NCBI GenBank assembly: GCA_947561715.1
Contig: OX387204.1
Location: forward strand, 4,717,001-4,781,000
DNA: 64,000 nucleotides
Direction: 5' to 3'
Source of the DNA: Ascidia mentula
Taxonomy: Eukaryota; Chordata; Ascidiacea; Phlebobranchia; Ascidiidae
Shown here: positions 22,066-52,989 of the stretch, piece after piece
Layout: every line of letters begins with the position of its first letter
Position numbering within the stretch: position 1 is the stretch's first letter
Translations under genes and position numbers: made by a program
Notes under the pieces: model-generated
Seen by the model: the letters and a program-made list of their open reading frames with translations, nothing else
Told to the model about the DNA's origin: nothing
Databases searched by the model: none

Positions 22066-23133
22066 CTATTTCTCCTCGACTTGGGTGTCCTTGTTTTCCG
22101 CGTCGTACCATTGCCGGTCACCCTTTTTGTCATCGTACCAAAGACGCTCTGGTACAGTTTTGAGGGCATCGTACCATTGTCGGCCACTCATTTTCTTGCC
22201 GTCATACCAAAGTCGCTCTGGAACGGTTCCATCGTACCATTGCCTGTCACCTTTTTTGTCATCGTACCAAAGACGCTCTGGTACAGTTTTGAGGGCATCG
22301 TACCATTGTCGGTCACTCATTTTCTTGCCGTCATACCATAGACGCTCTGGAACGGTTGTGAGAGCATCGTACCATTGCCTGTCACCCTTTTTGTCGTCAT
22401 ACCAAAGGCGCTCTGGAACGGTTGTAAGAGCATCGTACCATTGCCTGTCACCCTTTTTGTCGTCATACCAAAGGCGCTCTGGAACGGTTGTAAGAGCATC
22501 GTACCATTGCCTGTCACCCTTTTTGTCGTCATACCAAAGGCGCTCTGGAACGGTTGTAAGAGCATCGTACCATTGCCTGTCACCCTTTTTGTCGTCATAC
22601 CAAAGGCGCTCTGGAACGGTTGTAAGAGCATCGTACCATTGCCTGTCACCCTTTTTGTCGTCATACCAAAGGCGCTCTGGAACGGTTGTAAGAGCATCGT
22701 ACCATTGCCTGTCACCCTTTTTGTCGTCATACCAAAGGCGCTCTGGAACGGTTGTAAGAGCATCGTACCATTGCCTGTCACCCTTTTTGTCGTCATACCA
22801 AAGACGCTCTGGAACGGTTGTAAGAGCATCGTACCATTGCCTGTCACCCTTTTTGTCGTCATACCAAAGACGCTCTGGAACGGTTGTAAGAGCATCGTAC
22901 CATTGCCTGTCACCCTTTTTGTCATCATACCAAAGGCGCTCTGGTACAGTTGTAAGAGCATCATACCATTGCCGGTCACTCATTTTCTTTCCATCGTACC
23001 ACAAACGGTCGATTACTGTCGTCAACCCATTCTTGGTAATGATAACCCCAGCGTTAGGCTGCTTTTGAACTGGAGCACCACTCACCAAAGTGGCCACCAG
23101 TATCGAAGCGAAGACGATTTTCGACAGTTGCAT
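22066..23133 (-). CDS. Secreted protein of tandem 22-residue WYD repeats, 355 aa
   Basis: Start chosen at 23133 because it opens a clean signal peptide (MQLSKIVFASILVATLVSGA) just downstream of a TATA box; an upstream in-frame Met at 23205 would precede the TATA. After a linker (PVQKQPNAGVIITKNG) come 14 repeats of about 22 residues, consensus VPERLWYDDKKGDRQWYDAL plus TT. Nine central units are identical in sequence, and three outer units carry variants (GKKMS in place of DKKG, ALKT in place of ALTT). The tail is AENKDTQVEEK. Each unit has two Trp-Tyr-Asp motifs and one Lys-Lys, a possible processing site that would release peptides of about 20 residues. It may be a polypeptide hormone precursor or a structural/adhesive extracellular protein; no family is recognised. 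The 66-bp periodicity keeps other frames open on both strands; those are artefacts. Confidence 0.8.
   Translation of the reverse strand: MQLSKIVFASILVATLVSGAPVQKQPNAGVIITKNGLTTVIDRLWYDGKKMSDRQWYDALTTVPERLWYDDKKGDRQWYDALTTVPERLWYDDKKGDRQWYDALTTVPERLWYDDKKGDRQWYDALTTVPERLWYDDKKGDRQWYDALTTVPERLWYDDKKGDRQWYDALTTVPERLWYDDKKGDRQWYDALTTVPERLWYDDKKGDRQWYDALTTVPERLWYDDKKGDRQWYDALTTVPERLWYDDKKGDRQWYDALTTVPERLWYDGKKMSDRQWYDALKTVPERLWYDDKKGDRQWYDGTVPERLWYDGKKMSGRQWYDALKTVPERLWYDDKKGDRQWYDAENKDTQVEEK
22085..23030 (-). repeat. 66-bp tandem coding repeat
   Basis: About 14 units of 66 bp (some 63 or 69–72 through small in-frame indels). The central units differ from each other by only one or two bases, indicating recent unequal exchange or gene conversion. 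All indels preserve the reading frame of the minus-strand protein. Confidence 0.95.
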
Positions 23134-25742: not shown

Positions 25743-26486
25743 TGTTTGTATTTTCTATTTATTTTTCAAAGTGCATTATGTTATGTAGACAGGATTTTTA
25801 GTGTATTACATTGTACACCCCTGGCTGTAAATAGCCAAATGTTGCAATTGCTCTGTTCCAAGATACATTATCACTTTTACACAATGACTTTTTTCACGAG
25901 GGTAGTTTCTCGATTACACTTGGGACTCCTGCTTCTATTAGGTAAAAGCGGTGCTTCATAGTATTTTACTTATTATCATATTTGAACTGTTTGTAATGAT
26001 TGTAGTTTTGTGAAAAGGTTGCATTGCAGCAAACAAAGTTAAAAAGAACATACAACTATTGTTTTTATTTGGATGTGTGTATATGCACACAATTTTATGC
26101 AAGAAGAAGATTCGACCCGTTGGTGGACAATACAATATTTATTCTACAAGCATACCTTTTGGGTAGTGTTGTAGTGTGTATTGCAATACATAAACTTGCT
26201 TCGTTATCTATTAGTACCTTCCACGTTTGTCAGCAGCAGTCAAGTAGACATGGATTGTCAGAATGCAAGAAAGCCAAACTTACACAGAAAATTACCTTGT
26301 TTCGCAAAACAGTCGATTGAAAATGCCGTTAAATCAATATTCAGATGCTGCTTTGGTCTTGGATAGTTTTTGAATATACAGTGGCATAGAAAACTAAAAC
26401 ATGACAAAATTTTCCGTTCTAGGAAAGAACATCAACCGTTGTGTGTGTAACAAGTTTGGTTGCCAAGGTTTTAAAATTGGTTATAG
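25743..26486. other. RAB33B 3' UTR and intergenic up to the transposon target site
   Basis: No supported exon. Before the insertion this DNA adjoined the ankyrin gene now at 47202, so part of that gene's promoter probably lies here, 20 kb away from its start codon. Confidence 0.5.
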
Positions 26487-26492
26487 TCCATG
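26487..26492. repeat. Left target-site duplication (TCCATG)
   Basis: TCCATG is repeated exactly at 47135–47140 on the other side of the inverted termini. The preceding G is also shared, so a 7-bp reading is possible if the outer base of the termini is not part of the element. Confidence 0.85.
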
Positions 26493-26763
26493 CACTACTG
26501 TCATTTCGGCGAAATATTTTTTTGTTTCAACGAAATATAATTCACGCATGAATGAACACCACTTCAAGGGATTCATTAAAAACAAAACGCAACTACATAC
26601 CCAAATTAGAACACATTGACTATCGAAAAACATCAAATGTAACTTTAACATACCTATGCTATCGAATCTGACAATATTCGTTCACATAAGATATACTTTA
26701 AGGTCACAAAACTTATAAATTTGATGCGGTCATGTATCAGGCAGATAGTGGTGTAGTCGCTTG
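26493..26763 (+). repeat. Left unique terminal inverted repeat
   Basis: Matches the reverse complement of 46862–47134 with a handful of substitutions. It ends where the 206-bp array begins (CTTGATATAGGCGAACATTTG). Confidence 0.92.
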
Positions 26764-29700
26764 ATATAGGCGAACATTTGAAACCTTTCCGGGCCATAAG
26801 ATTTTTTTAAATTTTGCACAGGGCTTGCCTGAGGCCTGCTGATGAACGTGCTATAAGTTAAAATACCAACTCATTTCAAATTTCCCAGCGAAATGAACTT
26901 AACTGCAGGTCACCGCCTGTGACGGCATATAGTCCATTGCCCGCGTACAGCTTGACGACAAGGTCTCTTGTATAGGCGAACATTTGAAACCTTTCCGGGA
27001 CATAGGATTTTTTAAAATTTTGCACAGGGCTTGCCTGGAGCCTGCTGATGAACGTGGTATAAGTTAAAATACCAACTCATTTCAAATTTCCCAGCGAAAT
27101 GGATTTAACCGCAGGTCAACGCCTGTGACGGCATAGAGCCCATTGCCCGCTTATACCTTGGCGACAGGGTCTCTTGTATAGGCGAACATTTGAAACCTTT
27201 CCGGGACATAGGATTTTTTTAAATTTTGCACAGGGCTTGCCTGGAGCCTGCTGATGAACGTGGTATAAGTTAAAATACCAACTCATTTCAAATTTCCCAG
27301 CGAAATGAACTTAACTGCAGGTCACCGACTGTGACGGCATATAGCCCATTGCCCGCGTACAGCTTGGCGACAAGGTCTCTTGTATAGGCGAACATTTGAA
27401 ACCTTTCCGGGACATAGAATTTTTTTAAATTTTGCACAGGGTTTGCCTGAGGCCTGCTGATGAACGTGGTATAAGTTAAAATACCAACTCATTTCAAATT
27501 TCCCAGCGAAATGAACTTAACTGCAGGTCACCGCCTGTAACGGCAAAGAGCCCATTGCCAGCATACAGCTTGGCGACAGGGTCTCTTGTATAGGCGAACA
27601 TTTGAAACCTTTCCGGGACATAGGATTTTTTTAAATTTTGCACAGGGATGGCCTGGAGCCTGCTGATGAACGTGGTATAAGTTAAAATACCAACTCATTT
27701 CAAATTTCCCAGCGAAATGGATTTAACCGCAGGTCACCGACTGTGACGAAATAGAGGTCATTGCCCGCTTATACCTTGGCGACAAGGTCTCTTGTATAGG
27801 CGAACATTTGAAACCTTTCCGGGACATAGGATTTTTTTAAATTTTGCACAGGGCTTGCCTGAGGCCTGCTGATGAACGTGGTATAAGTTAAAATACCAAC
27901 TCATTTCAAATTTCCCATCGAAATGGATTTAATCGCAGGTCACCGCCTGTGACGGCATAGAGCCCATTGCCCGCTTATACCTTGGCGACAGGGTCTCTTG
28001 TATAGGCGAACATTTGAAACCTTTCCGGGACATAGGATTTTTTTAAATTTTGCACAGGGCTTGCCTGCAGCCTGCTGATGAACGTGGTATAAGTTAAAAT
28101 ACCAACTCATTTCAAATTTCCCAGCGAAATGGATTTAACCGCAGGTCAACGCCTGTGACGGCATAGAGCCCATTGCCCGCTTATACCTTGGCGACAAGCT
28201 CTCTTGGTATAGGCGAACATTTGAAACCTTTCCGGGACATAGGATTTTTTAAAATTTTGCACAGGGCTTGCCTGGAGCCTGCTGATGAACGTGGTATAAG
28301 TGAAAATACCAACTCATTTCAAATTTCCCAGCGAAATGGATTTAACCGCAGGTCAACGACTGTGACGACACAGACCCCATTGCCCGCTTATACCTTGGCG
28401 ACAAGCTCTCTTGTATAGGCGAACATTTGAAACCTTTCCGGGACATAGGATTTTTTTAAATTTTGCACAGGGATGGCCTGGAGCCTGCTGATGAACGTGG
28501 TATAAGTTAAAATACCAACTCATTTCAAATTTCCCAGCGAAATGAACTTAACTGCAGGTCACCGACTGTGACGGCAAAGAGCCCATTGCCAGCATACAGC
28601 TTGGCGACAGGGTCTCTTGTATAGGCGAACATTTGAAACCTTTCCGGGCCATAGGATTTTTTTAAATTTTGCACAGGGATGGCCTGGAGCCTGCTGATGA
28701 ACGTGGTATAAGTTAAAATACCAACTCATTTCAAATTTCCCAGCGAAATGGATTTAACCGCAGGTCACCGACTGTGACGAAATAGTGGTCATTCCCCGCT
28801 TATACCTTGGCGACAAGGTCTCTTGTATAGGCGAACATTTGAAACCTTTCCGGGACATAGGATTTTTTTAAATTTTGCACAGGGCTTGCCTGAGGCCTGC
28901 TGATGAACGTGGTATAAGTTAAAATACCAACTCATTTCAAATTTCCCAGCGAAATGGATTTAACCGCAGGTCAACGCCTGTGACGGCATAGAGCCCATTG
29001 CCCGCTTATACCTTGGCGACAGGGTCTCTTGTATAGGCGAACATTTGAAACCTTTCCGGGACATAGGATTTTTTTAAATTTTGCACAGGGCTTGCCTGCA
29101 GCCTGCTGATGAACGTGGTATAAGTTAAAATACCAACTCATTTCAAATTTCCCAGCGAAATGGATTTAACCGCAGGTCAACGCCTGTGACGGCATAGAGC
29201 CCATTGCCAGCGTACAGCTTGGCGTCAAGGTCTCTTGTATAGGCGAACATTTGAAACCTTTCCGGGACATAGGATTTTTTTAAATTTTGCACAGGGCTTG
29301 CCTGAGGCCTGCTGATGAACGTGGTATAAGTTAAAATACCAACTCATTTCAAATTTCCCAGCGAAATGGATTTAACCGCAGGTCAACGACTGTGACGGCA
29401 TAGAGCCCATTGCCTGCTTATACCTTGGCGACAAGCTCTCTTGTATAGGCGAACATTTGAAACCTTTCCGGGACATAGGATTTTTTTAAATTTTGCACAG
29501 GGCTTGCCTGAGGCCTGCTGATGAACGTGGTATAAGTTAAAATACCAACTCATTTCAAATTTCCCAGCGAAATGAACTTAACCGCAGGTCACCGCCTGTG
29601 ACGGCATAGAGCCCATTGCCCGCTTATACCTTGGCGACAGGGTCTCTTGTATAGGCGAACATTTGAAACCTTTCCGGGACATAGGATTTTTTAAAATTTT

Positions 29701-31895
29701 GCACAGGGCTTGCCTGGAGCCTGCTGATGAACGTGGTATAAGTGAAAATACCAACTCATTTCAAATTTCCCAGCGAAATGGATTTAACCGCAGGTCAACG
29801 ACTGTGACGACACAGACCCCATTGCCCGCTTATACCTTAGCGACAAGCTCTCTTGTATAGGCGAACATTTGAAACCTTTCCGGGACATAGGATTTTTTAA
29901 AATTTTGCACAGGGTTTGCCTGAGGCCTGCTAATGAACGTGGTATAAGTTAAAATACCAACTCATTTCAAATTTCCCAGCGAAATGGATTTAACCGCAGG
30001 TCACCGCCTGTGACGGCATAGAGCCCATTGCCAGCATACAGCTTGGCGACAGGGTCTCTTGTATAGGCGAACATTTGAAACCTTTCCGGGACATAGGATT
30101 TTTTAAAATTTTGCACAGGGTTTGCCTGAGGCCTGCTGATGAACGTGGTATAAGTTAAAATACCAACTCATTTCAAATTTCCCAGCGAAATGGATTTAAC
30201 CGCAGGTCAACGACTGTGACGGCATAGAGCCCATTGCCTGCTTATACCTTGGCGACAAGGTCTCTTGTATAGGCGAACATTTGAAACCTTTCCGGGACAT
30301 AGGATTTTTTTAAATTTTGCACAGGGTTTGCCTGAGGCCTGCTGATGAACGTGGTATAAGTTAAAATACCAACTCATTTCAAATTTCCCAGCGAAATGGA
30401 TTTAACCGCAGGTCAACGACTGTGACGGCATAGAGCCCATTGCCTGCTTATACCTTGGCGACAAGCTCTCTTGTATAGGCGAACATTTGAAACCTTTCCG
30501 GGACATAGGATTTTTTAAAATTTTGCACAGGGCTTGCCTGGAGCCTGCTGATGAACGTGGTATAAGTGAAAATACCAACTCATTTCAAATTTTCCAGCGA
30601 AATGGATTTAACCGCAGGTCAACGACTGTGACGGCATAGAGCCCATTGCCTGCTTATACCTTGGCGACAAGCTCTCTTGTATAGGCGAACATTTGAAACC
30701 TTTCCGAGACATAGGATTTTTTTAAATTTTGCACAGGGCTTGCCTGAGGCCTGCTGATGAACGTGGTATAAGTTAAAATACCAACTCATTTCAAATTTCC
30801 CAGCGAAATGAACTTAACCGCAGGTCACCGCCTGTGACGGCATAGAGCCCATTGCCAGCGTACAGCTTGGCGACAAGGTCTCTTGTATAAGCGAACATTT
30901 GAAACCTTTCCGGGACATAGGATTTTTTTAAATTTTGCACAGGGTTTGCCTGGAGCCTGCTGATGAACGTGGTATAAGTTAAAATACCAACTCATTTCAA
31001 ATTTCCCAGCGAAATGAACTTAACTGCAGGTCACCGCCTGTGACGGCAATGAGCCCATTGCCAGCGTACAGCTTGGCGACAAGGTCTCTTGTATAGGCGA
31101 ACATTTGAAACCTTTCCGGGACATAGGATTTTTTTAAATTTTGCACAGGGCTTGCCTAAGGCCTGCTGATGAACGTGGTATAAGTTAAAATACCAACCCA
31201 TTTCAAATATTCCAGCGAAATGGATTTAACTGCAGGTCAACGACTGTGACGACATAGAGCCCATTGCCCGCGTACAGTTTGGCGACAAGGTCTCTTGTAT
31301 AGGCGAATATTTGAAACCTTTCCGGGACATAGGATTTTTTTAAATTTTGCACAGGGCTTGCCTGAGGCCTGCTGATGAACGTGGTATAAGTTAAAATACC
31401 AACCCATTTCAAATATTCCAGCGAAATGGATTTAACTGCAGGTCAACGACTGTGACGACATAGAGCCCATTGCCCGCGTACAGTTTGGCGACAAGGTCTC
31501 TTGTATAGGCGAATATTTGAAACCTTTCCGGGACATAGGATTTTTTTAAATTTTGCACAGGGCTTGCCTGAGGCCTGCTGATGAACGTGGTATAAGTTAA
31601 AATACCAACTCATTTCAAATTTCCCAGCGAAATGAACTTAACTGCAGGTCACCGCCTGTGACGACATAGAGCCCATTGCCAGCGTACAGCTTGGCGACAA
31701 GGTCTCTTGTATAGGCGAACATTTGAAACCTTTCCGGGACATAGGATTTTTTTAAATTTTGCACAGGGCTTGCCTAAGGCCTGCTGATGAACGTGGTATA
31801 AATTAAAATACCAACTGATTTCAAATTTTCCAGCGAAATGAACTAGGTCATTGCCCGCGTATACCTTGGCAACAAGGACTCTTGTACAGGCAGAC
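26764..31895 (+). repeat. Left subterminal array, ~25 units of ~206 bp
   Basis: The word GGCGAACATTTGAAACC recurs every 205–208 bp from about 26769 to 31710. Each unit also contains CAGGGCTTGCCTG, GCTGATGAACGTGG and GGTCACCG(C/A)CTGTGAC, an interrupted palindrome that could be a protein-binding site. Units differ mainly at a few linked positions (ATGAACTTAACTG versus ATGGATTTAACCG), implying higher-order subtypes. Short ORFs within the array are incidental. Confidence 0.97.
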
Positions 31896-33327
31896 TTTTT
31901 TTTGACGTTTTCATTGCATAGTCCACATAAAAAATCGTTCTTCAGGCAGGTGAGTGACATGCCCCTTTAAATGTATTGCAATGAAGTAATGCAGTTTTTT
32001 GGCGCTACATATTTCCATTTCGTTGTCGATGCATTTTGTATTAATCTCCCAATTGTTTGAAGTGAATCCTGATTGGCTGGAGAAACTGCTCCCTTCTCCT
32101 CTATCTCTCAAATTTTGAAATGACCAATGAGCAGTCGTTTCAAGTTGTATTGCGTCATGATTATTCAAACGGAAGCTGGTTTGAATTTTTTTGCAATTCA
32201 CTTGCTATATGCTGACTTGGTGAGTAGACGCTTGTTTTTATGTTCCTGTTTTTGATTTTATTTAAATGTTACATTCAAATTATGACATGCCCAACTGAGT
32301 ATAAATGGCTTCGTTATGTACATAGTGGTAGGAAGGATATAAATCGGGAATTTTGTTGTCACTGTGGCACTTGATTTTCCTAATCGTAATTTGTTGATTG
32401 TTATTATCCGTTCCTAACATTACACGACTTTATAGGCAAATGCACAAAACCCCACAAAGTCGTTAAACTACACAATAAATCGTTGTATACTTCTACCCAG
32501 TTAAAACCTAATATTTAGATTTAGTACTTTGTTGATGGATGTAGTACTTGTACTAGAAGGTTGGCTTAAAAGTTTAAAAATAAATAAATTCTGTAATATT
32601 TTTGGGGACATCAAATGAAAATGCAGTCTTCTGATATAGACCTGGTCACTATCATACAGCGGTTAAAACACAATTCATTATCCGATTTTGCCTTCACAAT
32701 GGGTTTGACGTCACAATGCTGTAGCAAAAGATTGACATAAATGTATTGTGTTTAGATGGGAGTTTTTACTTAAAATCATGCATTGGTAATTTTTCTTGTG
32801 TGGAAAAATCTAACGTTGAGGCAAATCATAAATAATCGAGGATTAAAAACAAGTGTTCAAGGCCCAGGCTGTTTTTTGGTCTTGGTGGACGCTTTTGTTT
32901 TAATAAACTTTCATTTAAACCAATGCATTTCCAGTCAACCTTCACTTGCAGCACTGCGACTTAAACCCATTGTTAACAGGAAGTCGGAATCATGAATAGG
33001 CAAACGAATAAATAACTACATTTGAGGTGGGCGAATGGCACTATTGGCCAAGGCCCCCTACACGTATGACAAGCTAAAAAGTCGATCAAAATTCTTGCTA
33101 GGATATACTGGGTTGGAAAGTCGAAAAAATGAAAAAAATAACATTTTAGGAATATGTCTGAAAATACATCAATAAGGAGCGGTTAGGATAAAAGTGCATA
33201 TGCCTTCTACGAGTTTGTTTGTGTTGTACTTTTGATAAAATTTGCCGCCAGTATGGTTAAGTAAGTAAATCAGATGCATCTCGTTTCACACTAAACGTAT
33301 CTGTTTTACTTGCAGAAAACTGCTATT
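31896..33327 (+). promoter_or_regulatory. Element-internal leader upstream of the polyprotein gene
   Basis: About 1.4 kb of AT-rich sequence without a supported coding exon. TATAAA-type words occur near 32300 and 32338. A good splice pair (GTAAGTAAAT at about 33258; TTTTACTTGCAG ending 33315) could remove an intron from the 5' UTR. The promoter is inferred to lie here. Confidence 0.4.
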
Positions 33328-33463
33328 TATCAACTTGCTACGACTATTATCAACTTGCTACGACTATTATCAACTTGCTACGACTATTTATCAACTTGCT
33401 ACGACTATTTTCAATTTGCTACGACTATTATCAACTTGCTACGACTATTATCAACTTGCTACA
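33328..33463 (+). repeat. 21–22-bp minisatellite directly before the start codon
   Basis: Seven copies of ATCAACTTGCTACGACTATT with small length variation, ending 8 bp before the ATG at 33471. It is probably 5' UTR; it is open in some frames only because of the repeat. Confidence 0.9.
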
Positions 33464-33470
33464 ATCGACG

Positions 33471-36400
33471 ATGGGAAGAAGAACGCCGCCCAAGAAATAT
33501 AGAGTTGGAGTTTCCGGAAAGCAGACATGTTACCTCCGTGCTGAGGGGTCACCGCTTCCTTCAGTGTTGTTGGTGACCGACAGCAACGGGAGGAACATTG
33601 TCTGCCCCCAGGTGGTATCGGCGAAAAGTAAACTTTTTACCTTAAGTGCTATTTCTATTCCAGGGGGAACACTGAACCATGGAGCGGAGGAACTCATGTA
33701 CGGGAAAAGGTTCGAGTCAGTTGATTTTATCATTTTGGCTCTTGGTACGAACGACCTGGTCTCTCGACATGCTGATCACCACCATAACAGCATTGGGACC
33801 GATTTTCAACAGCTGCTCGAGGTGTGCCAACAAACGTACCCTCAGTCTCAGGTTGGTTACGTATATTGTATAACGGTATTGTTTGTTCCTGTTACTGCCA
33901 GCAAAGCAATTTTTTCCCCCGTAACCGTAAAATTGACTTTTTTGCCTACACACACTTTACGTTTTGTATATATTTTTGAGTAGATTGTGATGGCTGGTAT
34001 CTTGGAGCAGTCTGGTTTTCACGAACACTGCGTTCAACAAGCCAACCGGGTACTGCACAACCTTTCCGAGGAGTATGGGCTCACCTTCTTGGATTTTAAT
34101 ATCTCCAACGACCGAGGGAACTGGAGCGATCAACTCCATCTTTCGGACGTAGGGCTGCGCCACTACATGGACAGTCTTGAAGAGCATGTCCATACTCTTC
34201 TGACTGTAGAAGATCCTATTGGTAAGAAAAATGACCATTTTGCGTGTCTTCTAGTGTTAAACCACCTTATAAGCACGAAAACACAAAAAGGATCCATTTT
34301 ATGAAAAGTGTTTTGTTATATCATTAGTGTCTGCGGCAATATACATTATTTTAATCAAGAGGCACAACTATCAAGTTTTGTGCTGCAGTACCAACAACCT
34401 TCGAACAGCATTCCTCAAAACCAACAAAAAACAACTTTAGAGAATCATTCAACAAACAGAAAAAGTTCAAACCCCTTAGCTGCTTTGGTTGTGTCGTTGA
34501 GTGTATACGGCCAAAGAAGAGAGAGCAAGTGTTGGGTTCATCGACTACCAGGATAATTTGCGATGCCCCTGCCAAGGCAGTTCGTACTCCAGGCAGAGTC
34601 GACAGTGAAGCTGCGACGAGTGCGTCTGCCAAGGCAGTTCGTACTCCAGGCAGAGTCGACAGTGAAGCTGCGACGAGTGCGTCTGACAAGGCAGTTCGTA
34701 CTCCAGGCAGAGTCGACAGTGAAGCTGCGACGAGTGCGTCTGCTAATGCAGTTCGTACTCCAGGCAGAGTCGACAGTGAAGCTGCGACGAGTGCGTCTGC
34801 CAAGGCAGTTCGTACTCCAGGCAGAGTCGACAGTGAAGCTGCGACGAGTGCGTCTGCCAAGGCAGTTCGTACTCCAGGCAGAGTCGACAGTGAAGCTGCG
34901 ACGAGTGCGTCTGCTAATGCAGTTCGTACTCCAGGCAGAGTCGACAGTGAAGCTGCGACGAGTGCGTCTGACAAGGCAGTTCGTACTCCAGGCAGAGTCG
35001 ACAGTGAAGCTGCGACGAGTGCGTCTGCTAATGCAGTTCGTACTCCAGGCAGAGTCGACAGTGAAGCTGCGACGAGTGCGTCTGCCAAGGCAGTTCGTAC
35101 TCCAGGCAGAGTCGACAGTGAAGCTGCGACGAGTGCGTCTGACAAGGCAGTTCGTACTCCAGGCAGAGTCGACAGTGAAGCTGCGACGAGTGCGTCTGCT
35201 AATGCAGTTCGTACTCCAGGCAGAGTCGACAGTGAAGCTGCGACGAGTGCGTCTGCTAATGCAGTTCGTACTCCAGGCAGAGTCGACAGTGAAGCTGCGA
35301 CGAGTGCGTCTGCCAAGGCAGTTCGTACTCCAGGCAGAGTCGACAGTGAAGCTGCGACGAGTGCGTCTGACAAGGCAGTTCGTACTCCAGGCAGAGTCGA
35401 CAGTGAAGCTGCGACGAGTGCGTCTGCTAATGCAGTTCGTACTCCAGGCAGAGTCGACAGTGAAGCTGCGACGAGTGCGTCTGCCAAGGCAGTTCGTACT
35501 CCAGGCAGAGTCGACAGTGAAGCTGCGACGAGTGCGTCTGCCAAGGCAGTTCGTACTCCAGGCAGAGTCGACAGTGAAGCTGCGACGAGTGCGTCTGCCA
35601 AGGCAGTTCGTACTCCAGGCAGAGTCGACAGTGAAGCTGCGACGAGTGCGTCTGCCAAGGCAGTTCGTACTCCAGGCAGAGTCGACAGTGAAGCTGCGAC
35701 GAGTGCGTCTGCTAATGCAGTTCGTACTCCAGGCAGAGTCGACAGTGAAGCTGCGACGAGTGCGTCTGCTAATGCAGTTCGTACTCCAGGCAGAGTCGAC
35801 AGTGAAGCTGCGACGAGTGCGTCTGCCAAGGCAGTTCGTACTCCAGGCAGGGTCGGCAGTGAAGCTGCGAGGAGTGCTTCTGCTAAAGCAGTTCATGGAA
35901 CAGGAAAGTTGTTAGGATTTGTGTTCGATGTCTTCAAGCGAGGTATTTATACTATCTTGAGTTTTTGCATGTTCTATCTGTTTTTTATGCAATACTGCCT
36001 GTGTTCAGTTGGGTTTGGGTACATTGGTTGTTTCGCCTTGAGCAGCTTTGGTTTTATTCCCGGAATTCGGCGATTAACTCGAAATCGGCAAAAGAATCGA
36101 AATAGTGGCATTCCCGGTACGTTTTTATTAACGCCGCTGCAGTTGTCAGGTCGCTTGATCCTCACCGGTGGTTCACGGTTCAAAACTTGCAACGAAAAAA
36201 TCGACACGATTTGTAAGTACTTGCGTTTACATCGATTGAAAAAGTTTACCAGGAAAAGTGGTTTGAACTTTCTTCGTTCCAACGATCTTTGGCCCGGAAT
36301 GCAAGTTAACAGACGATTTAAAAAGTTGCTGAATTTTTGTAAAGTGCATAAATTACAAAACACATTGACTCAACGTCTTGATCTTTCTCCACGTAGCCCA

Positions 36401-39400
36401 GGTCACCAAAAGCAAAATTTGTTTTACGCCGCATTACCATCTTTAGTGGAGTGCCTACAAGAATACCCCCGCACGTTAAAACTACCAAACAAGGCCGTAA
36501 AAGCAGTTTTGAAATATTGCAAACTTCCAGTTAATGAAAAAAACAGGATGAAAGTAAAAAAGTTTTGGCTAGAAGAGAAATCATTTCGCAAAACTGCACA
36601 GTCGTATTTCAAACAACGTAATTGTTGCGAACCATCACCAAAGTTGTCCACACAGCCCAAAACGCCTTTCGGTAAGGCTTTATTTTGTATTTGTAACGCG
36701 CCCTATGATGGCACTTTAATGGTTGAATGTGAATCTTGCCAGCAATGGTTTCATCCCAGATGTGTATTTGAGGAAACGTCCGTCGCTGTAGGTTTAACGG
36801 AAAATCAATGGAAACGGTCGCATTTGGTTTGTCCTGGATTTGATTTGTGCTCGAAATCTTGTTTTGTACATAGGCCATTAAAATCCGATGATTTTGCTAT
36901 TGGTAATGATAAAACCGTGAAAAATAATAGAGAGCAAAGTGTGATTGACACCGATGAAGGGATGTTTCAATCTTCGTTTTCTGGACTAGATTTTCAGTCG
37001 CATGTAACAACTTCACCTGTCGCACTTTTACCTGCTTTTACTACACCCTTGACAGCTGTAGAAAATTTAGAAGTTGAACGTGATGGTTTGGGTGATGAGG
37101 CATCTGCCAAAATTCACAATAATTTGACCAATGAAACCGATGGCATGAACTTTAATTCGATATTACAAGAAAATTTTGATGTGACAAGTGAACTTGGTGG
37201 AATAAGTTTCGAAACCCAGCAAAACTTTCAGCATGCAGCCGATGTCGCGATAGACAGTAAATTCGTTCTTTCACTTCAGGAATGGCAATCAATTGTGAAA
37301 AATAGATCCGAAAATCACTTTGGTAGTAATGCGTACGTTGATGTCACAGTAATGCACCTTCGGAAAATCTATGCGGGTTGTGTCCCGAACATAGCCAACA
37401 ATTACTTGGTTAACTGTAGTGGCGTGAAGAATATCAAGAAATTGGACAAATGTTATAAGGAAGGTTGGGTAAACTTGTATTGTGCGCACAAAAGATGTGA
37501 AAATTGTGTTTGTGAGGTAAAATTTAAAGTGACGTTTTGGTCGTTTGTGGATAAAGTTGAAGGCCGCGTACAAATTACTGGAAAAAGAAACCATCACCGC
37601 GCTTGTAAGAAATGTAGACGTGTGTGTGGACTAATGAGGGAAGAACTTCGCAAAAAACTGCAGCATCAAACTGCAGTGAAACAATATCGCGATATGTTTG
37701 ACGAATTATTGCCAGAAGAACGTTGGTTAGGGGCTTGCACATATTTGCCTTCACAATCAGTTTTAAACAACATTAAAAGCGAACACAGTGGCAGCAAACG
37801 AATAAGCGATTCATGGTTTGTAAATTTAAATATGCAGCGACTGAAAATGAATAAAAAATTTATTCGTTGTATTTCGGCGCATTTTCCTATGGTGGCAATG
37901 TATTCCGACGCACAGATAAAAATTTTTAATCGCGTGTGCGCGTTTGATATTGCGTATTTTGATTCCACTGGCAGTGTGCTGCGCCGAATTGAAAATTATT
38001 CGGATTTCCAAGTGTATACCTTACTAATTCGAAATCCAACTAAAGGTGGCGCACCACTTCCGGTTGCAACTTGCGTGACATCAAAGCATGATGCGATCAC
38101 GATTAGTCATTTTTTGGAAACATTTCTCTCGGATTGTCTTAAAGTGTGTAGTGTGTCTCGAAAACCCAAACTGCTTATCATTGATGGCTCGATGGCAATG
38201 TGGAACGCTGTTTTAAAGGCATTTTGTCGGGAAACTCGTATAGAATTTTACAACAGGTGTTATAGAATTTTAACAGGCGTTCCAGACCACGGCGATTTGC
38301 AAAAAACTGTGGTCCATAATTGCTACAGCCATGCAATGAAAGCAGCCAAAATTTTATGCAACAAACACTGTCAAAGTTCAAAATTGTTGAAGACTTATTT
38401 GTTCTGGTTAAACATTTTTTTTAATTGCGAGAATATTACGGATCTAGATATGGCTGTGGAAAGTTTTATTGTTTTGACTAACTGCGAAGTTCCTTCCTCA
38501 TTAGTCGAATTTCATTACAACCGCTTGAAATCCAAAGGTGCGTCCGGTAAATTCAATTTTGATGACACTGACGACGACAAGGGTGTGGCAGGGCACACAG
38601 ATTATGTTTTTTCGAGTAAAGAAACAGATAAACTACAGGAAAAACAGTCCCCATTTTTTGTCCGGTACAAACGAAAATTAGAAAATTTTTTGAAAACGAG
38701 TTCTAAGACACCAACTTCCTCACAAATTGGCGCCAATGTCTATTACAATCCGAAATTATGTGAACGTTTGATCGATGTGGTTTTAAGCAGAATATGTTCA
38801 ACGTCTAAGTTAATGCTTGGGGATTTGTCACGGCATTTCCACGACAGTAAATCCAGCAACGAACAGGCCAACATGTTTATTACGTACGCGAAAGATTGCA
38901 ATGTGATAAAGAGTTGCCTCCACCAAACAATCCTTCACAATAACAAAACTCAAGGAATTATTGAGGAACATTTTCGAGATTTAAAACGAAACATAATTGA
39001 TGGAAAGCGAATAGCTCGAATAGACGATTTTGCTTTGAAATACTATGATGCCATTAAAGTTTTACAAAAACTCTTTGCCGATTCGTTAATGAGCTTTCGT
39101 GGAAAACCGAACAAATCCCCTTTAAACCCAAACAACACTGAAGCCGCTAAGCGTACATTGGTTGTGGAGTCAAAGTTTAAAAAGAGGAAAAGAAACAAAA
39201 CCAGTTTTTACTCTTCGGAAATCATATGTAAACGTTTAAAATACGAAAACGAAAAATCACTTTCTCCGCAACCAATGTTAACACTTGAGTGCACCCCGAC
39301 AATGTCATTTTTTACAAACTGTCCAAAACCAATTGAAAATTTTTACGACTGTAAGAAAATTGCAGATTTCATTTGGCATCATATACCTTTTACCCCAACT

Positions 39401-41581
39401 TCAATTTTTGACACCGCCCTCGTCATGCCCTGTCGTCAGTCAGTTTCTTGGTTAGATTTGTGTTCCCTTTGCAGTAGACCTCGTGGGAAAACGTATTGTG
39501 CTTTAACTCAAAACCCGGCGAACACGCACAACGACTTAACAATTGGTTGGTTAACGGACAACGTTGTAGATTGTTATATTTCCAGAACACTCCGTTATTG
39601 TAATTTACGTATGGCTGGTGGCTTTGGGTTTGTGTCAACTATTACAGCGGGAGAAATTTTGCAGGGCAAACAATTCAAAAATATTCGCAATGCACTTCGT
39701 GGTATGTTTCATAACGAACGTTTATGTGAGCATGTTTTTATTCCAGTTCTTTTTGAAGGGCATTTTGTGATTTTGTGGTATAAACATTTTGAGAACGAAA
39801 TGGTTCTTTATGATTCTACTGGAAGTTCGCGAAAACAACTCACGTCTTTAGTAAGGAAATGTTTAATTCCGATTTTTGTTTCGATAACCGGTCGTGACCT
39901 TTCTTTTAAATCCGACTCACTTGTATATCAGAGCGATCTGTCTAGTTGCGGTTTGTGTGTATGTTTCACCGTAGAAAAAATTGCAAACAACATAATTGGG
40001 ATTGATAAGATTGAGTTCGACGTTGCGCGATATCGTATTTGGATGGTGTTTGCGCTTGTCCAGGAATCGATCAGTTGCAGTGACAAATTAAATACTTGGA
40101 TTGTGAAAAACAAGCTAGTTTTGGCCGGTCTTCCAAATTTATATAATAACTGTTGGTTAAATTCTGTGTTACAAGCTGTTCAATGTTTGTTAGATCGCCC
40201 TTGTGTTTTTCCTAGTAAAACCACGATAGAAGGTAGGATTGGTCACTTAGTTTGTTATCTTGCACAGAACTGCGTTGATTCCTCATCATACTTGCAATTG
40301 GTTAAAGACGTTTGTAGTCACCTTAATTTTAATTTAAATGAGCAGCAGGACCCCACTGAATTTTTAATGCTTTTTAATTTTGCTTCCGTAATAAAGAGTT
40401 GTGGATTAAACTGGTCGTTTAAGTATCATTCATCAAAAACTTGCAAGGCATGTGGCAACGAAGAGAAATTTCAGAATGACCAATCTGTGCTTACGTTGCC
40501 ATTGTTCGATCACATCCCGGACAACAGCAATCTCAGTGCATATTGTGAAACTGAATTTCACAACGTTGCCATCAGCCATTGTTCCCATTGTAATTTGGAT
40601 ACAGAGAAGAAGATTAGCAGTGAGATCAAAAGTCCAACAGACGTATTATGCATTGTTGTTTTTAGGAATATAAGTGGCAAGAAAAGCAATAAACGTGTAG
40701 TCCCAGATGAATTGTTGCGTTTTGAACAAGGAGTTTTGTTTAGGCTTATGTCTGTTGTTGTACATATTGGATCCGGTGTTAACTCAGGCCATTATTTAAC
40801 GTACAAATTCAATAAATTTCATTTGACAGAATTTAATGACGACACTGTAAAACATGTCGCATGGAATAGTGTTAAAGAAAGGATATTTACGGGTTGTTGC
40901 ATTTTTTTTTACAAGAAAGTTAAGACCGGTATTGATTCATCCAGCACCCCAGCCCAACCTAAGATTTTTGTCCGTCGCAAGCCAAGACGTTTCAAGGAGT
41001 CGGCAGCGAAGTCTACGGATCGCATTATTGAAACAAATATTGTTTTGGAGCAATACATAGATGGAAAAAATATTGTAATTTCGAATGTTACTGAATTGAA
41101 CTCTGCTAGAAAACAATCATATGACCTTATTTTTAACAAAATAAAGGCGGCTTTATCAAAATCATTTCAACAAGCAAAAAATTTACCAGAATGTTACCGC
41201 CTATGTTTATATTACCATGGTAAAAAAAATATGTTGACAAAGTACAACAAAAATTTTGCCCCCCTTACAATCTCCCAAGATGAAATGAGCAATATAATGC
41301 GATTCGTGGAATATTCGTTTTGTCGACGTCTCGTGCGTCAACGACTTGTTGGTAGTCAGGTTTTCCGTGAATCATTTTGCGGCCGAGATATGAAACCAGG
41401 TTTGATTGTGGAAGGAAGCATGTTAAGTGAAATGGTGATAGACAAAATACTGGATGTAAATTTTTTCCTAAACAACGTTTTGTACCTTGAGGCCATCATT
41501 TGTTATTTAATGAGTACAAGTAGCTGTACATACGAGGAAACGTGTAGAAGGGTCGGTTCTAAACCATCGATTTTTGTTTAA
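33471..41581 (+). CDS. Transposon polyprotein: SGNH hydrolase – repeats – PHD – DDE transposase – Ulp1 protease – USP, ~2612 aa
   Basis: Inferred exons 33471–33851, 33984–34221 and 34362–41581; phases close (7839 nt). Domains in order: SGNH-like hydrolase (Ser in VTDSNGR at about 38, Asn in LGTNDL, DQLH with Asp and His at 176/179); 23 repeats of 19 residues (277–713); PHD finger (about 980–1042; CIC, CESC, HPRC, CPGFDLC); Cys/His-rich domain (about 1245–1300); DDE-like core with Asp in YFDSTGS (1407), Asp in LLIIDGS (1481) and candidate Glu in IIEEHF (1741); C48 Ulp1-like peptidase with WLTDN, His 2007, Asp 2024, Gln 2063 and Cys 2069, the canonical spacing; C19 USP-like peptidase with NNCWLNS (Cys 2137), a CxxC pair, SGHYLTY (His 2350) and NDD (2366); then an unknown C-terminal region. 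The join of the SGNH exons to the long exon rests on phase; the latter could instead be a separate protein. Confidence 0.85.
34571..35881 (+). repeat. 57-bp tandem coding repeat, 23 units
   Basis: 23 x 57 bp exactly; each encodes KAVRTPGRVDSEAATSAS plus one variable residue. Almost all variation is confined to the codons encoding A/D and K/N (GCC AAG, GAC AAG, GCT AAT), so units fall into three types. Only the last is diverged. Because 57 is a multiple of three and lacks stops, other frames on both strands also stay open; these are not genes. Confidence 0.97.
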
Positions 41582-41767
41582 AAGGACACAGTTGAATTTG
41601 CCTTCTTGTGTATACTTGTTGTTTTCTCTTTCATTTGATATGCATTTTAGACGAACAAGAGTTTTTAAGAAGGGGATACCTGACTACAAATTGGTTCTAA
41701 ACCAGTGTATAGGAACACATCCATGCATGTGAACTAACTTAGCAGTTATGTTTTGTTGTAAATTCAG

Positions 41768-41773
41768 AATAAA
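41768..41773 (+). terminator. Polyadenylation signal of the transposon gene
   Basis: AATAAA 187 nt after the stop codon and before the right-hand repeat array; the transcript would end at about 41790. Confidence 0.5.
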
Positions 41774-41954
41774 TCAATATGTTTACATTTCAGATCAGTT
41801 CTTTTCTTCATTTGGATGTGATTGCCTCCAAATATAGTTTTATCTGCAAAATAAAACCACTACGATTGCCGGAACCTTGACGTGGTGTAGTGGCTTTATA
41901 CCAATACCGGCATACTGACACAAAATAGACAAATTTATTACATATCACAACAAA

Positions 41955-44900
41955 CCTTCTATATGCCGTCACAGTCGTTGACCTGCGGTCAAATCCATTT
42001 CGCTGGGAAATTTGAAATGAGTTGGTATTTTAACTTATACCACGTTCATCAGCAGGCTCCAGGCAAGCTCTGTGCAAAATTTAAAAAAATCCTATGTCCC
42101 GGAAAGGTTTCAAATGTTCGCTTATACAAGAGACCTTGTCGCCAAGCTGTACGCTGGCAATGGGCTCTATGCCGTCACAGGCGGTGACCTGCGGTTAAGT
42201 TCATTTCGCTGGGAAATTTGAAATGAGTTGGTATTTTAACTTATACCACGTTCATCAGCAGGCCTCAGGCAAGCCCTGTGCAAAATTTAAAAAAATCCTA
42301 TGTCCCGGAAAGGTTTCAAATGTTCGCCTATACAAGAGAGCTTGTCGCCAAGGTATAAGCGGGCAATGGGCTCTATGCCGTCACAGTCGTTGACCTGCGG
42401 TTAAATCCATTTCGCTGGGAAATTTGAAATGAGTTGGTATTTTAACTTATACCACGTTCATCAGCATGCCTCAGGCAAACCCTGTGCAAAATTTGAAAAA
42501 ATCCTATGTCCCGGAAAGGTTTCAAATGTTCGCCTATACAAGAGACCTAGTCGCCAAGCTGTACGCGAGCATTGGGCTCTATGTCGTCACAGTCGTTGAC
42601 CTGCCTTTGAATCCATTTCGCTGGGAAATTTGAAATGAGTTGGTTTTTTTTACTTATACCACGTTCATCAGCAGGCTCCAGGCAAGCTCTGTGCAAAATT
42701 TAAAAAAATCCTATGTCCCGGAAAGGTTTCAAATGTTCGCTTATACAAGAGACCTTGTCGCCAGGCTGTACGCTGGCAATGGGCTCTTTGCCGTCACAGG
42801 CGGTGACCTGCGGTTAAGTTCATTTCGCTGGGAAATTTGAAATGAGTTGGTATTTTAACTTATACCACGTTCATCAGCAGGCCTCAGGCAAGCCCTGTGC
42901 AAAATTTAAAAAAATCCTATGTCCCGGAAAGGTTTCAAATGTTCGCTTATACAAGAGACCTTGTCGCCAAACTGTACGCGGGCAATGGGCTCTATGTCGT
43001 CACAGGCGGTGACCTGTAGTTAAGTTCATTTCGCTGGGAAATTTGAAATGAGTTGGTATTTGACCTTATACCACGTTCATCAGCAGGCTCCAGGCAAGCC
43101 CTGTGCAAAATTTAAAAAAATCGTATGTCCCGGAAAGGTTTCAAATGTTCGCTTATACAAGAGACCTTGTCGCCAAGCTGTACGCTGGCAATGGGCTCTT
43201 TGCCGTCACAGGCGGTGACCTGCGGTTAAGTTCATTTCGCTGGGAAATTTGAAATGAGTTGGTATTTTAACTTATACCACGTTCATCAGCAGGCCTTAGG
43301 CAAGCCCTGTGCAAAATTTAAAAAAATCCTATGTCCCGGAAAGGTTTCAAATGTTCGCCTATACAAGAGACCTTGTCGCCAAGCTGTACGCTGGCAATGG
43401 GCTCTTTTCCGTCACAGGCGGTGACCTGCGGTTAAGTTCATTTCGCTGGGAAATTTGAAATGAGTTGGTATTTTAACTTATACCACGTTCATCAGCAGGC
43501 TCCAGGCAAGCCCTGTGCAAAATTTAAAAAAATCCTATGTCCCGGAAAGGTTTCAAATGTTCGCCTATACAAGAGACCTTGTCGCCAAGCTGTACGCGGG
43601 CAATGGGCTCTATGTCGTCACAGTCGTTGACCTGCCTTTAAATCCATTTCGCTGGGAAATTTGAAATGAGTTGGTATTTTAACTTATACCACGTTCATCA
43701 GCAGGCCTTAGGCAAGCCCTGTGCAAAATTTAAAAAAATCCTATGTCCCGGAAAGGTTTGAAATGTTCGCCTATACAAGAGACCTTGTCGCCAAGCTGTA
43801 CGCTGGCAATGGGCTCTTTGCCGTCACAGGCGGTGACCTGCGGTTAAGTTCATTTCGCTGGGAAATTTGAAATGAGTTGGTATTTTAACTTATACCATGT
43901 TCATCAGCAGGCTCCAGGCAAGCTCTGTGCAAAATTTAAAAAAATCCTATGTCCCGGAAAGGTTTCAAATGTTCGCTTATACAAGAGACCTTGTCGCCAA
44001 GCTGTACGCTGGCAATGGGCTCTATGCCGTCACAGGCGGTGACCTGCGGTTAACTTCATTTCGCTGGGAAATTTGAAATGAGTTGGTATTTTAACTTATA
44101 CCACGTTCATCAGCAGGCCTCAGGCAAGCCCTGTGCAAAATTTAAAAAAATCCTATGTCCCGGAAAGGTTTCAAATGTTCGCCTATACAAGAGAGCTTGT
44201 CGCCAAGGTATAAGCGGGCAATGGGCTCTATGCCGTCACAGTCGTTGACCTGCGGTTAAATCCATTTCGCTGGGAAATTTGAAATGAGTTGGTATTTTAA
44301 CTTATACCACGTTCATCAGCAGGCCTCAGGCAAACCCTGTGCAAAATTTGAAAAAATCCTATGTCCCGGAAAGGTTTCAAATGTTCGCCTATACAAGAGA
44401 CCCTGTCGCCAAGCTGTATGCTGGCAATGGGCTCTATGCCGTCACAGTCGTTGACCTGCGGTTAAATCCATTTCGCTGGGAAATTTGAAATGAGTTGGTA
44501 TTTAAACTTATACCATGTTCATCAGCAGGCTCCAGGCAAGCTCTGTGCAAAATTTAAAAAAATCCTATGTCCCGGAAAGGTTTCAAATGTTCGCTTATAC
44601 AAGAGACCTTGTCGCCAAGCTGTACGCTGGCAATGGGCTCTTTGCCGTCACAGGCGGTGACCTGCAGTTAAGTTCATTTCGCTGGGAAATTTGAAATGAG
44701 TTGGTATTTTACCTTATACCACGTTCATTAGCAGGCTCCAGGCAAGCCCTGTGCAAAATTTAAAAAAATCGTATGTCCCGGAAAGGTTTCAAATGTTCGC
44801 CTATACAAGAGACCTTGTCGCCAAGCTGTACGCGGGCAATGGGCTCTTTGCCGTCACAGGCGGTGACCTGCGGTTAAGCTCATTTCGCTGGGAAATTTGA

Positions 44901-46861
44901 AATGAGTTGGTATTTTAACTTATACCACGTTCATCAGCAGGCTCCAGGCAAGCCCTGTGCAAAATTTAAAAAAATCCTATGTCCCGGAAAGGTTTCAAAT
45001 GTTCGCCTATACAAGAGACCTTGTCGCCAAGCTGTACGCGGGCAATGGGCTCTATGTCGTCACAGTCGTTGACCTGCCTTTAAATCCATTTCGCTGGGAA
45101 ATTTGAAATGAGTTGGTATTTTACCTTATACCACGTTCATCAGCAGGCTCCAGGCAAGCCCTGTGCAAAATTTAAAAAAATCCTATGTCCCGGAAAGGTT
45201 TTAAATGTTCGCCTATACAAGAGACCTTGTCGCCAAGCTGTACGCGGGCAATGGGCTCTATGTCGTCACAGTCGTTGACCTGCCATTAAATCCATTTCGC
45301 TGGGAAATTTGAAATGAGTTGGTATTTTAACTTATACCATGTTCATCAGCAGGCTCCAGGCAAGCTCTGTGCAAAATTTAAAAAAATCCTATGTCCCGGA
45401 AAGGTTTCAAATGTTCGCTTATACAAGAGACCTTGTCGCCAAGCTGTACGCGGGCAATGGGCTCTTTGCCGTCACAGGCGGTGACCTGCAGTTAAGTTCA
45501 TTTCGCTGGGAAATTTGAAATGAGTTGGTATTTTACCTTATACCACGTTCATCAGCAGGCTCCAGGCAAGCCCTGTGCAAAATTTAAAAAATCCTATGTC
45601 CCGGAAAGGTTTCAAATGTTCGCCTATACAAGAGACCTTGTCGCCAAGCTGTACGCGGGCAATGGGCTCTATGTCGTCACAGTCGTTGACCTGCCTTTAA
45701 ATCCATTTCGCTAGGAAATTTGAAATGAGTTGGTATTTTAACTTATACCATGTTCATCAGCAGGCTCCAGGCAAGCTCTGTGCAAAATTTAAAAAAATCC
45801 TATGTCCCGGAAAGGTTTCAAATGTTCGCTTATACAAGAGACCTTGTCGCCAAGCTGTACGCGGGCAATGGGCTCTTTGCCGTCACAGACGGTGACCTGC
45901 GGTTAAGTTCATTTCGCTGGGAAATTTGAAATGAGTTGGTATTTTAACTTATACCACGTTCATCAGCAGGCTCCAGGCAAGCCCTGTGCAAAATTTGAAA
46001 AAATCCTATGTCCCGGAAAGGTTTGAAATGTTCGCCTATACAAGAGACCTTGTCGCCAAACTGTACGCGGCAATGGGCTCTATGTCGTCACAGTCGTTGA
46101 CCTGCCTTTAAATCCATTTCGCTGGGAAATTTGAAATGAGTTGGTATTTTAACTTATACCACGTTCATCAGCAGGCTCCAGACAAGCCCTGTGCAAAATT
46201 TAAAAAATCCTATGTCCCGGAAAGGTTTCAAATGTTCGCTTATACAAGAGACCTTGTCGCCAGGCTGTACGCTGGCAATGGGCTCTTTGCCGTCACAGGC
46301 GGTGACCTGCGGTTAAGTTCATTTCGCTGGGAAATTTGAAATGAGTTGGTATTTTAACTTATACCACGTTCATCAGCAGGCCTCAGGCAAGCCCTGTGCA
46401 AAATTTAAAAAAATCCTATGTCCCGGAAAGGTTTCAAATGTTCGCTTATACAAGAGACCTTGTCGCCAAGCTGTACGCGGGCAATGGGCTCTTTGCCGTC
46501 ACAGACGGTGACCTGCGGTTAAGTTCATTTCGCTGGGAAATTTGAAATGAGTTGGTATTTTAACTTATACCACGTTCATCAGCAGGCTCCAGGCAATCCC
46601 TGTGCAAAATTAAAAAAAATCCTATGTCCCGGAAAGGTTTCAAATGTTCGCTTATACAAGAGACCTTGTCGCCAAGCTGTACGCTGGCAATGGACTCTTT
46701 GCCGTCACAGGCGGTGACCTGCAGTTAAGTTCATTTCGCTGGGAAATTTGAAATGAGTTGGTATTTTAACTTGTACCACGTTCATCAGCAGGCTCCAGGC
46801 AAGCCCTGTGCAAAATTTAAAAATATTCTATGTCCCGGAAAGGTTTCAAATGTTCGCCTAT
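41955..46861 (-). repeat. Right subterminal array, ~24 inverted units of ~206 bp
   Basis: The same unit as the left array in reverse orientation (TTTCAAATGTTCGC recurring every about 206 bp from 42115 to 46851). Subtypes parallel those on the left. With the left array it could pair as a stem of about 5 kb. Confidence 0.97.
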
Positions 46862-47134
46862 ATCAAGCGACTACACCTCTATCTGCCTGATACATGATCG
46901 CATCAAATTTACAAGTTTTGTGACCTTAAAGTATATCTTATGTGAACGAATATTGTCAGATTCGATAGCATATGTATGTTGAAGTTTCATTTGATGTTTT
47001 TCGATAGTCAATGTGTTCTAATTTGGGTATGTAGTTGTGTTTTGTTTTTGATGAATCCCTTGAAGTGGTGTTCATTCATGCGTGAAATATATTTCGTTGA
47101 ACCAAAAAAATATTTCGCCGAAATGACAGTAGTG
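46862..47134 (-). repeat. Right unique terminal inverted repeat
   Basis: Reverse complement of 26493–26763 with few differences; ends CAGTAGTG and is followed at once by TCCATG. Confidence 0.92.
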
Positions 47135-47140
47135 TCCATG
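47135..47140. repeat. Right target-site duplication (TCCATG)
   Basis: Exact copy of 26487–26492. Confidence 0.85.
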
Positions 47141-47201
47141 CGCACGCTGCACAGCGCAACGAACCACAAAACATTGCAAGGTTACCCAACTTGTACTCGT
47201 T

Positions 47202-50404: not shown

Positions 50405-52972
<2,568 letters not shown>

Positions 52973-52989
52973 GTTGCCAAATTCCAATA

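Follow-up and report, generated by a model that had tools for sequence, protein, structure and literature searches.

A probable giant foldback-type DNA transposon with repeat-array arms in the ascidian Ascidia mentula

Foldback/NOF elements carry composite terminal inverted repeats (TIRs), built of tandem repeats that vary in number, and make 8-10-bp target duplications. Tm1, a Phantom-type Mutator-like element (MULE), has composite TIRs of the same variable-number kind and 8-10-bp, mostly 9-bp, duplications; its repeat unit is 13-15 bp, and its transposase-bearing copy measures 2.6 kb (PMC3169594). Rehavkus elements, whose reported hosts are arthropods and annelids, combine satellite-type tandem arrays (a minisatellite) in their inverted termini with a PHD finger and duplications of about 9 bp (PMC6446971, PMC10218199), and the 9.5-kb Rehavkus-1_TC ends in inverted termini with short arrays of a 164-bp satellite (PMC10218199). 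Here we describe an element with comparable arms from a tunicate, Ascidia mentula. A stretch of 64,000 bp (GenBank assembly GCA_947561715.1, contig OX387204.1, positions 4,717,001 to 4,781,000; G000:C72:4717001-4781000 in our labels), hereafter called the window, contains a 20,640-bp element that we read, with a probability of about 0.8, as a complete foldback-type, cut-and-paste DNA transposon that is probably autonomous, with the arm and protein roles proposed below.

Long repetitive TIRs are also found in Galileo (P superfamily), whose transposase binds sites within the TIR tandem repeats; the corresponding sites in the A. mentula element are candidates. Galileo differs by its THAP domain, its P-type transposase and a TIR of about 1.2 kb in Galileo-G, and the same source describes the role of the Foldback and Phantom repeats as untested (PMC3688188). 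Transposases joined to an Ulp1 domain, sometimes with a PHD finger, are described for Ginger1 and for Mutators, including Mutators found in hydra and in the lancelet (PMC2836005). The joining of a USP-type protease to a transposase has a precedent as well, in a Trichomonas Transposase_11 protein with Peptidase C19, which differs in transposase family and host (PMC2836005). Ginger1 elements measure 2.6-7.1 kb in the table of that source, whose passages on them mention neither a second, USP-type protease nor an SGNH part (PMC2836005), and the passages cited for Foldback/NOF and Tm1 mention no protease domains. Compared with the known foldback and Mutator-type elements, the A. mentula element is unusual in its very large size and in the two protease domains beside its transposase.

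Boundaries, target duplication and related copies

The outer parts of the element are as follows.

26486..26493, no strand: left target site duplication, GTCCATGC
26494..26764, plus strand: left unique terminus, 271 bp, starting ACTACTGTCATTTCGGCGAAAT
46863..47133, minus strand: right unique terminus, 271 bp
47134..47141, no strand: right target site duplication, GTCCATGC

Since the direct repeat is 8 bp long, the complete element spans 26494-47133 and begins ACTACTG. A reading of the window made from its letters alone (the original prediction) had proposed a 6-bp duplication and a terminus starting CACTACTG. Its TCCATG was found on both sides, at 26487-26492 and 47135-47140; the shorter duplication arose because the ends had been aligned one base too far out, the outer C/G being part of the duplication. 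The base preceding ACTACTG varies among the other copies (C, A, G or T), and assigning this base to the flank lengthens the direct repeats. The inverted ends with unique termini of about 271 bp were present as described, with 10 mismatches between left and right. With its ends and arms whole and a long frame free of stops, the element bears out the description as complete, giant and undecayed.

The original prediction had proposed searching the genome with the terminus, and other copies do exist in the 195.8 Mb (79 contigs) searched. The 294-bp left end gave at least 42 matches (40 of 130 candidates scored), and a degenerate 22-bp tip pattern, allowing at most 1 mismatch, gave 139 matches versus 0 for a reversed control, so that chance is excluded. 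The conserved tips read ACTACTGTCATTTCGGCGAAAT and ACCACCGTCATTTCGGCGAAAT. When the 91 exact tips among the matches listed (100 of the 139) were paired with neighbours within 40 kb, 30 inward-facing pairs of 1.1-31.3 kb were obtained, and the 31.3-kb pair may represent two elements. Thirteen both-ended copies were used to count duplications, namely the 10 of the 30 tip pairs for which letters were fetched and the loci L038, L064 and L065; one-sided or truncated copies are uninformative here. The duplication was 8 bp in 9/13 and 9 bp in 1/13, and was absent in 3/13; the sizes found lie within the 8-11 bp of MULE target duplications (PMC6446971). The 8-bp duplications of related copies read CATTGGGC, GAAATGCA, CTGTCTTT, GTTGAAGC and CAAGAGAC, and the 9-bp duplication GAGTGGTAG; copies of a sister family have TATTGTTT and AAATTTAC, and a diverged 1.4-kb copy has TGTTTCTG.

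CACTA/EnSpm elements make 2-4-bp duplications and Dada elements 6-7-bp ones, and the duplications here, being mostly 8 bp, do not fit Dada. The window copy does read CACTA...TAGTG at its ends, as a CACTA/EnSpm element would; we rejected this placement as very improbable because the outer C, variable among copies, belongs to the duplication, and because the duplications are 8 bp compared with 3 bp for CACTA (PMC12730594). IS3EU elements, with TA..TA ends and usually 6-bp duplications (PMC10045372), also fall away, since the duplication is 8 bp and the ends are wrong.

The genome contains a whole clan of such elements, made up of several families, to which the element of the window belongs. At least 32 rows were returned by a search with the whole predicted protein (20 of 562 candidates scored) and at least 77 by a search with its DDE transposase region (62 of 251 candidates scored). 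At least 18 loci, at 39-100% identity, combine a DDE match free of stops with an open frame no shorter than 1,500 residues. Seven of these 18 intact DDE frames lie inside tip pairs, which span 13.5, 16.1, 16.5, 16.6, 20.1, 20.2 and 20.6 kb, the last being that of the window. Relatives from protein databases outside the genome (at least 4, 12 and 15 listed) all belong to the clan, and the one whose host is given comes from Styela clava. This relative and two GH6 matches agree with a tunicate host, GH6 being a mark of tunicates among animals. Long tandem arrays pose problems for assembly, and the arms could in principle be an artefact of it, or else reflect a segmental inversion around a satellite; we rejected this explanation as very unlikely because the same structure recurs at unlinked loci with matching duplications. 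Misassembly of the two arms, which the original prediction had named as a possible refutation, is unlikely, with 6 other intact-DDE loci bracketed by correctly oriented tips.

Two sister-family copies on different contigs are 99.7% (1,799 bp) and 99.1% (1,767 bp) identical outside the arms, carry different 8-bp duplications and measure 16.1 and 13.5 kb. The high identity together with the different duplications indicates that the sister family moved recently, and the difference in length between such near-identical copies indicates that the arms change their number of units quickly. Six window-related copies (L046/47, L048/49, L050/51, L054, L055 and L056), read from nine fetched pieces with shared deletion junctions, have the same internal deletions and keep both arms. 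One of the deletions that all six share takes out the core between 37976 and 38713; the left tip of L054 is damaged. These copies resemble non-autonomous descendants of a single deleted parent, and those with intact ends probably moved in trans.

Two further loci concern copy history. At L038 (G000:C72:13504843-13505504), two tips face each other with mutually reverse-complementary flanks, forming a palindromic half-element. The terminus copies L026 and L027 (G000:C73:6689260 and 6695010) lie 5.75 kb apart with an identical 20-bp flank, and the site was therefore probably duplicated after insertion.

The gene and its predicted protein

The element has one gene, whose three predicted exons, once spliced, would encode 2,603 residues with no stop inside the frame. 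Splice sites were placed by eye from GT/AG and phase.

33471..33851, plus strand: exon 1, SGNH-hydrolase-like (TDSNG, GTND); Pfam GDSL_2 E 0.038, under the cut-off
33984..34221, plus strand: exon 2, end of the SGNH-like part (DxxH; DQLH); putative splice sites
34389..41581, plus strand: exon 3, with the repeats, PHD finger, Cys/His cluster, DDE transposase, Ulp1-like part, ubiquitin-specific protease (USP) and C-terminal region
34569..35894, plus strand: 19-residue repeat, 23 copies within the protein (57-bp tandem repeat)
36683..36790, plus strand: PHD finger; PF00628 E 6.4e-6, over the cut-off
37481..37620, plus strand: conserved Cys/His cluster; nothing significant in Pfam
37961..38965, plus strand: putative RNase H-like catalytic core; D1203, D1277, C1323xxH1326 and E1537 of P0001, assigned by motif
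39356..40125, plus strand: Ulp1-like cysteine protease, H1803-D1820-Q1859-C1865; by motif only, no Pfam match
40127..40912, plus strand: USP (UCH/USP), C1933, H2146, D2162; UCH E 3.4e-11, over the cut-off

The intact 7-kb exon of the original prediction was confirmed as a frame open from stop to stop (34355-41581), to which the two predicted exons upstream are to be added. An in-frame intron suspected near 35915 was rejected, the splice sites there being unconvincing. The Cys/His cluster may resemble a FLYWCH/WRKY-GCM1 zinc finger. The catalytic residues fall at 1203-1537 of the long frame, which displaces the DDE region from the 1245-1780 first suggested. C1323-H1326 lies between D1277 and E1537 and is kept in the relatives that span that stretch; a C/DxxH in this position is a MULE feature, common also to Dada, hAT, Kolobok and P (PMC10045372). 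The window protein keeps the expected catalytic residues of its DDE, Ulp1-like and USP parts. The relatives P0005 and P0013 continue from the DDE region into the Ulp1-like part, and P0005 continues into the start of the USP.

Database profiles place the catalytic domain poorly. Pfam transposase models did not recognise it, save for one sub-threshold match to MULE (PF10551; E 0.041) in 1/19 relatives, and the window protein and the family consensus were unmatched. A search of PDB sequences with the DDE profile gave ribosomal-protein matches alone (E of at least 0.13), which were taken as chance. A KDZ element of the Zisupton type would account for 8-bp duplications like those found here (PMC12730594); we consider it improbable and rejected it because the Pfam KDZ profile (PF18758) is silent at the clan elements, its 6 pieces in the genome lying at none of them, and is unmatched in the 19 relatives and the consensus. 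This combination of domains was not found described in the literature searched, which is not proof of its absence.

A UCH match lies in the same frame at 18/18 intact loci (at least 18 in the genome), over the cut-off in every case and with the second half of the profile alone in 6/18. Its presence at all of these loci suggests that deubiquitination matters to the element. The SGNH exon precedes the DDE frame at 13/18 loci, at a distance of two to five kilobases and in the same orientation; among the 18, it was not found at the four sister-family copies or at the locus with 39% identity. That locus (G000:C69:11176628-11178691 and 11174804-11175607), which among the intact relatives has diverged furthest in its DDE region, has the best USP score of the 18, 83.5 bits, as if the USP had been taken up early in the clan. 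The SGNH exon at G000:C52:2792087-2792467 is 97% identical to that of the window (33471-33851), though the DDE regions are 66% identical, which suggests that the front part of the gene has been exchanged between families.

Repeat arms, the shared box and the genomic surroundings

The inverted arrays had been estimated at about 25 repeats each, close to the numbers counted.

26765..31840, plus strand: left arm array, 25 units of 206 bp
41962..46862, minus strand: right arm array, 24 units of 206 bp

The arms are separated by about 10 kb and share 93.7% identity across 5,180 aligned positions; mean unit identity is 94.1% in the left arm, 94.5% in the right and 93.7% between arms. The box TTCCGGGMCATAGGATTTTTT, allowing at most 2 mismatches, occurs 25 times on the plus strand of the left arm (26787-31732) and 24 times on the minus strand of the right arm (42084-46820). 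In the genome, the box TTCCGNNNCATAGGATTTT has 1,014 exact copies versus 0 for the reversed control. Among the matches listed (on C1), box arrays have spacings of 206, 182 and 188/232 bp, and wherever both arms are listed, the box is on the plus strand at the left and on the minus strand at the right.

The 206-bp unit and the 188-bp unit of the sister family have in common TTCCGGGmCATAGGATTTTTTnAAAwTT (score 41, versus at most 28 in 200 shuffles). Between the 182-bp and 206-bp units the box alone is common, the score of 37 (shuffle maximum 27) falling to 16 when the box is masked. A box that is kept while the remaining unit turns over is the pattern that would be expected of a binding site.

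At C1:1932259-1944288, inverted arrays carry this box at 182-bp spacing and are separated by about 6 kb; they have no DDE match among the matches listed and may represent a third family or another cargo. The unit lengths of 206, 188 and 182 bp, like the 164 bp given for Rehavkus-1_TC (PMC10218199), are all near one nucleosome repeat.

The element is inserted 61 bp before the putative ATG, at 47202, of an ankyrin-repeat gene (Pfam Ank E 5.4e-5), and so may sit in its promoter or 5' leader. Elsewhere in the window, a 66-bp tandem repeat of 13.4 copies (22103-22986) is open on both strands, and Pfam matches there are probably repeat artefacts. On the minus strand, two exons at 50408-50869 and 52115-52993, one for a MOZ/SAS acetyltransferase (E 2.8e-31) and one for a C2HC zinc finger, perhaps form one MYST gene. 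Scans of the window for tRNA genes and Rfam families gave no matches.

Proposed mechanism and placement

We propose that the single gene would supply a transposase, some 2,600 residues long, whose predicted core is D-D-CxxH-E. Insertion proceeds by an 8-bp, sometimes 9-bp, staggered cut, as the duplications show. The transposase would recognise the conserved 22-bp tip, and its Cys/His domain would bind the box TTCCGNNNCATAGGATTTT, present about 25 times per arm, by analogy with Galileo. The arms would thus give the transposase docking arrays and so make up for how long the element is. The PHD finger would act as a chromatin reader. The Ulp1-like and USP domains may remove SUMO and ubiquitin, either from the transposase itself or from proteins with which the host repairs or silences DNA.

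Several observations weigh against this reading. The three both-ended copies without a duplication are C2:2960966 (a full pair with unlike flanks), L038 (the palindrome) and L065 (a 398-bp pair). A joined-flank search for an empty allele, made in the single assembly, matched just the two flanks, which are single-copy there. The locus C52:2786934, counted among the 18 with an intact DDE frame, shows a TAA in another part of its whole-protein match. Three clan families were read as sequence, that of the window with its frame whole and two others in part. The acidic residue of the Ulp1-like part (D1820) is Asn in both other families read, and Asp in the relative P0005. As to the box, the 206- and 188-bp units have a second block in common, roughly 40 bp around GCGAAATGG, which still scores 33 when the box is masked; these units are therefore probably diverged homologues in which such blocks were kept, and the 182- and 188-bp units score 29, equal to the shuffle maximum of 29. 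Finally, the functions given to the arms and the proteases are ones that we infer.

The claim made here concerns mechanism, namely that the element works like a foldback Mutator/Rehavkus-type cut-and-paste element, and not a family name. The duplication size, the CxxH, the long TIRs, the PHD finger and the satellite-filled inverted arms agree with the Mutator/Rehavkus/Foldback group and point to it. We lean slightly towards placing the element, as a giant form, within the Rehavkus/Foldback-NOF branch of MULEs and not in a lineage of its own, a view that is compatible with the mechanism and bears on the name. It draws on the Rehavkus features described above, of which the PHD finger and the satellite arrays in inverted termini are found here, on the tandem-repeat TIRs of Tm1, on the Mutators with Ulp1 and on the CxxH between the second D and the E. 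It is opposed by the near-silence of PF10551, whose 49 matches in the genome include none at the window element or at the 18 loci, and by duplications that are mostly 8 bp, the 9 bp of Rehavkus being seen in 1/13 copies. Alignment by hhalign with two MULEs of the same genome also gave nothing, a weak comparison of one sequence with a profile of 11. No protein named Rehavkus was among the protein-database matches listed.

Superfamily membership is thus unproven, and the foldback-type element is possibly of a new lineage, as the original prediction had suggested. It is conceivable, though rather doubtful, that the clan represents a superfamily-level animal lineage of giant array-armed elements, in which a single protein combines a transposase outside the catalogued families with SUMO-type and ubiquitin-type proteases and an SGNH hydrolase, the ends are recognised via about 50 box copies at roughly nucleosome spacing, and the element has seeded satellite arms genome-wide.

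Cut-and-paste elements are thought to pay for length (PMC6431247, PMC3688188), and arthropod MULEs measure 1.4-10.0 kb (PMC13359780). In contrast, seven intact-DDE elements of 13.5-20.6 kb lie here within correct tips, and at least one family has moved recently. The box common to the arm repeats makes the idea of the foldback array as a binding site directly testable.

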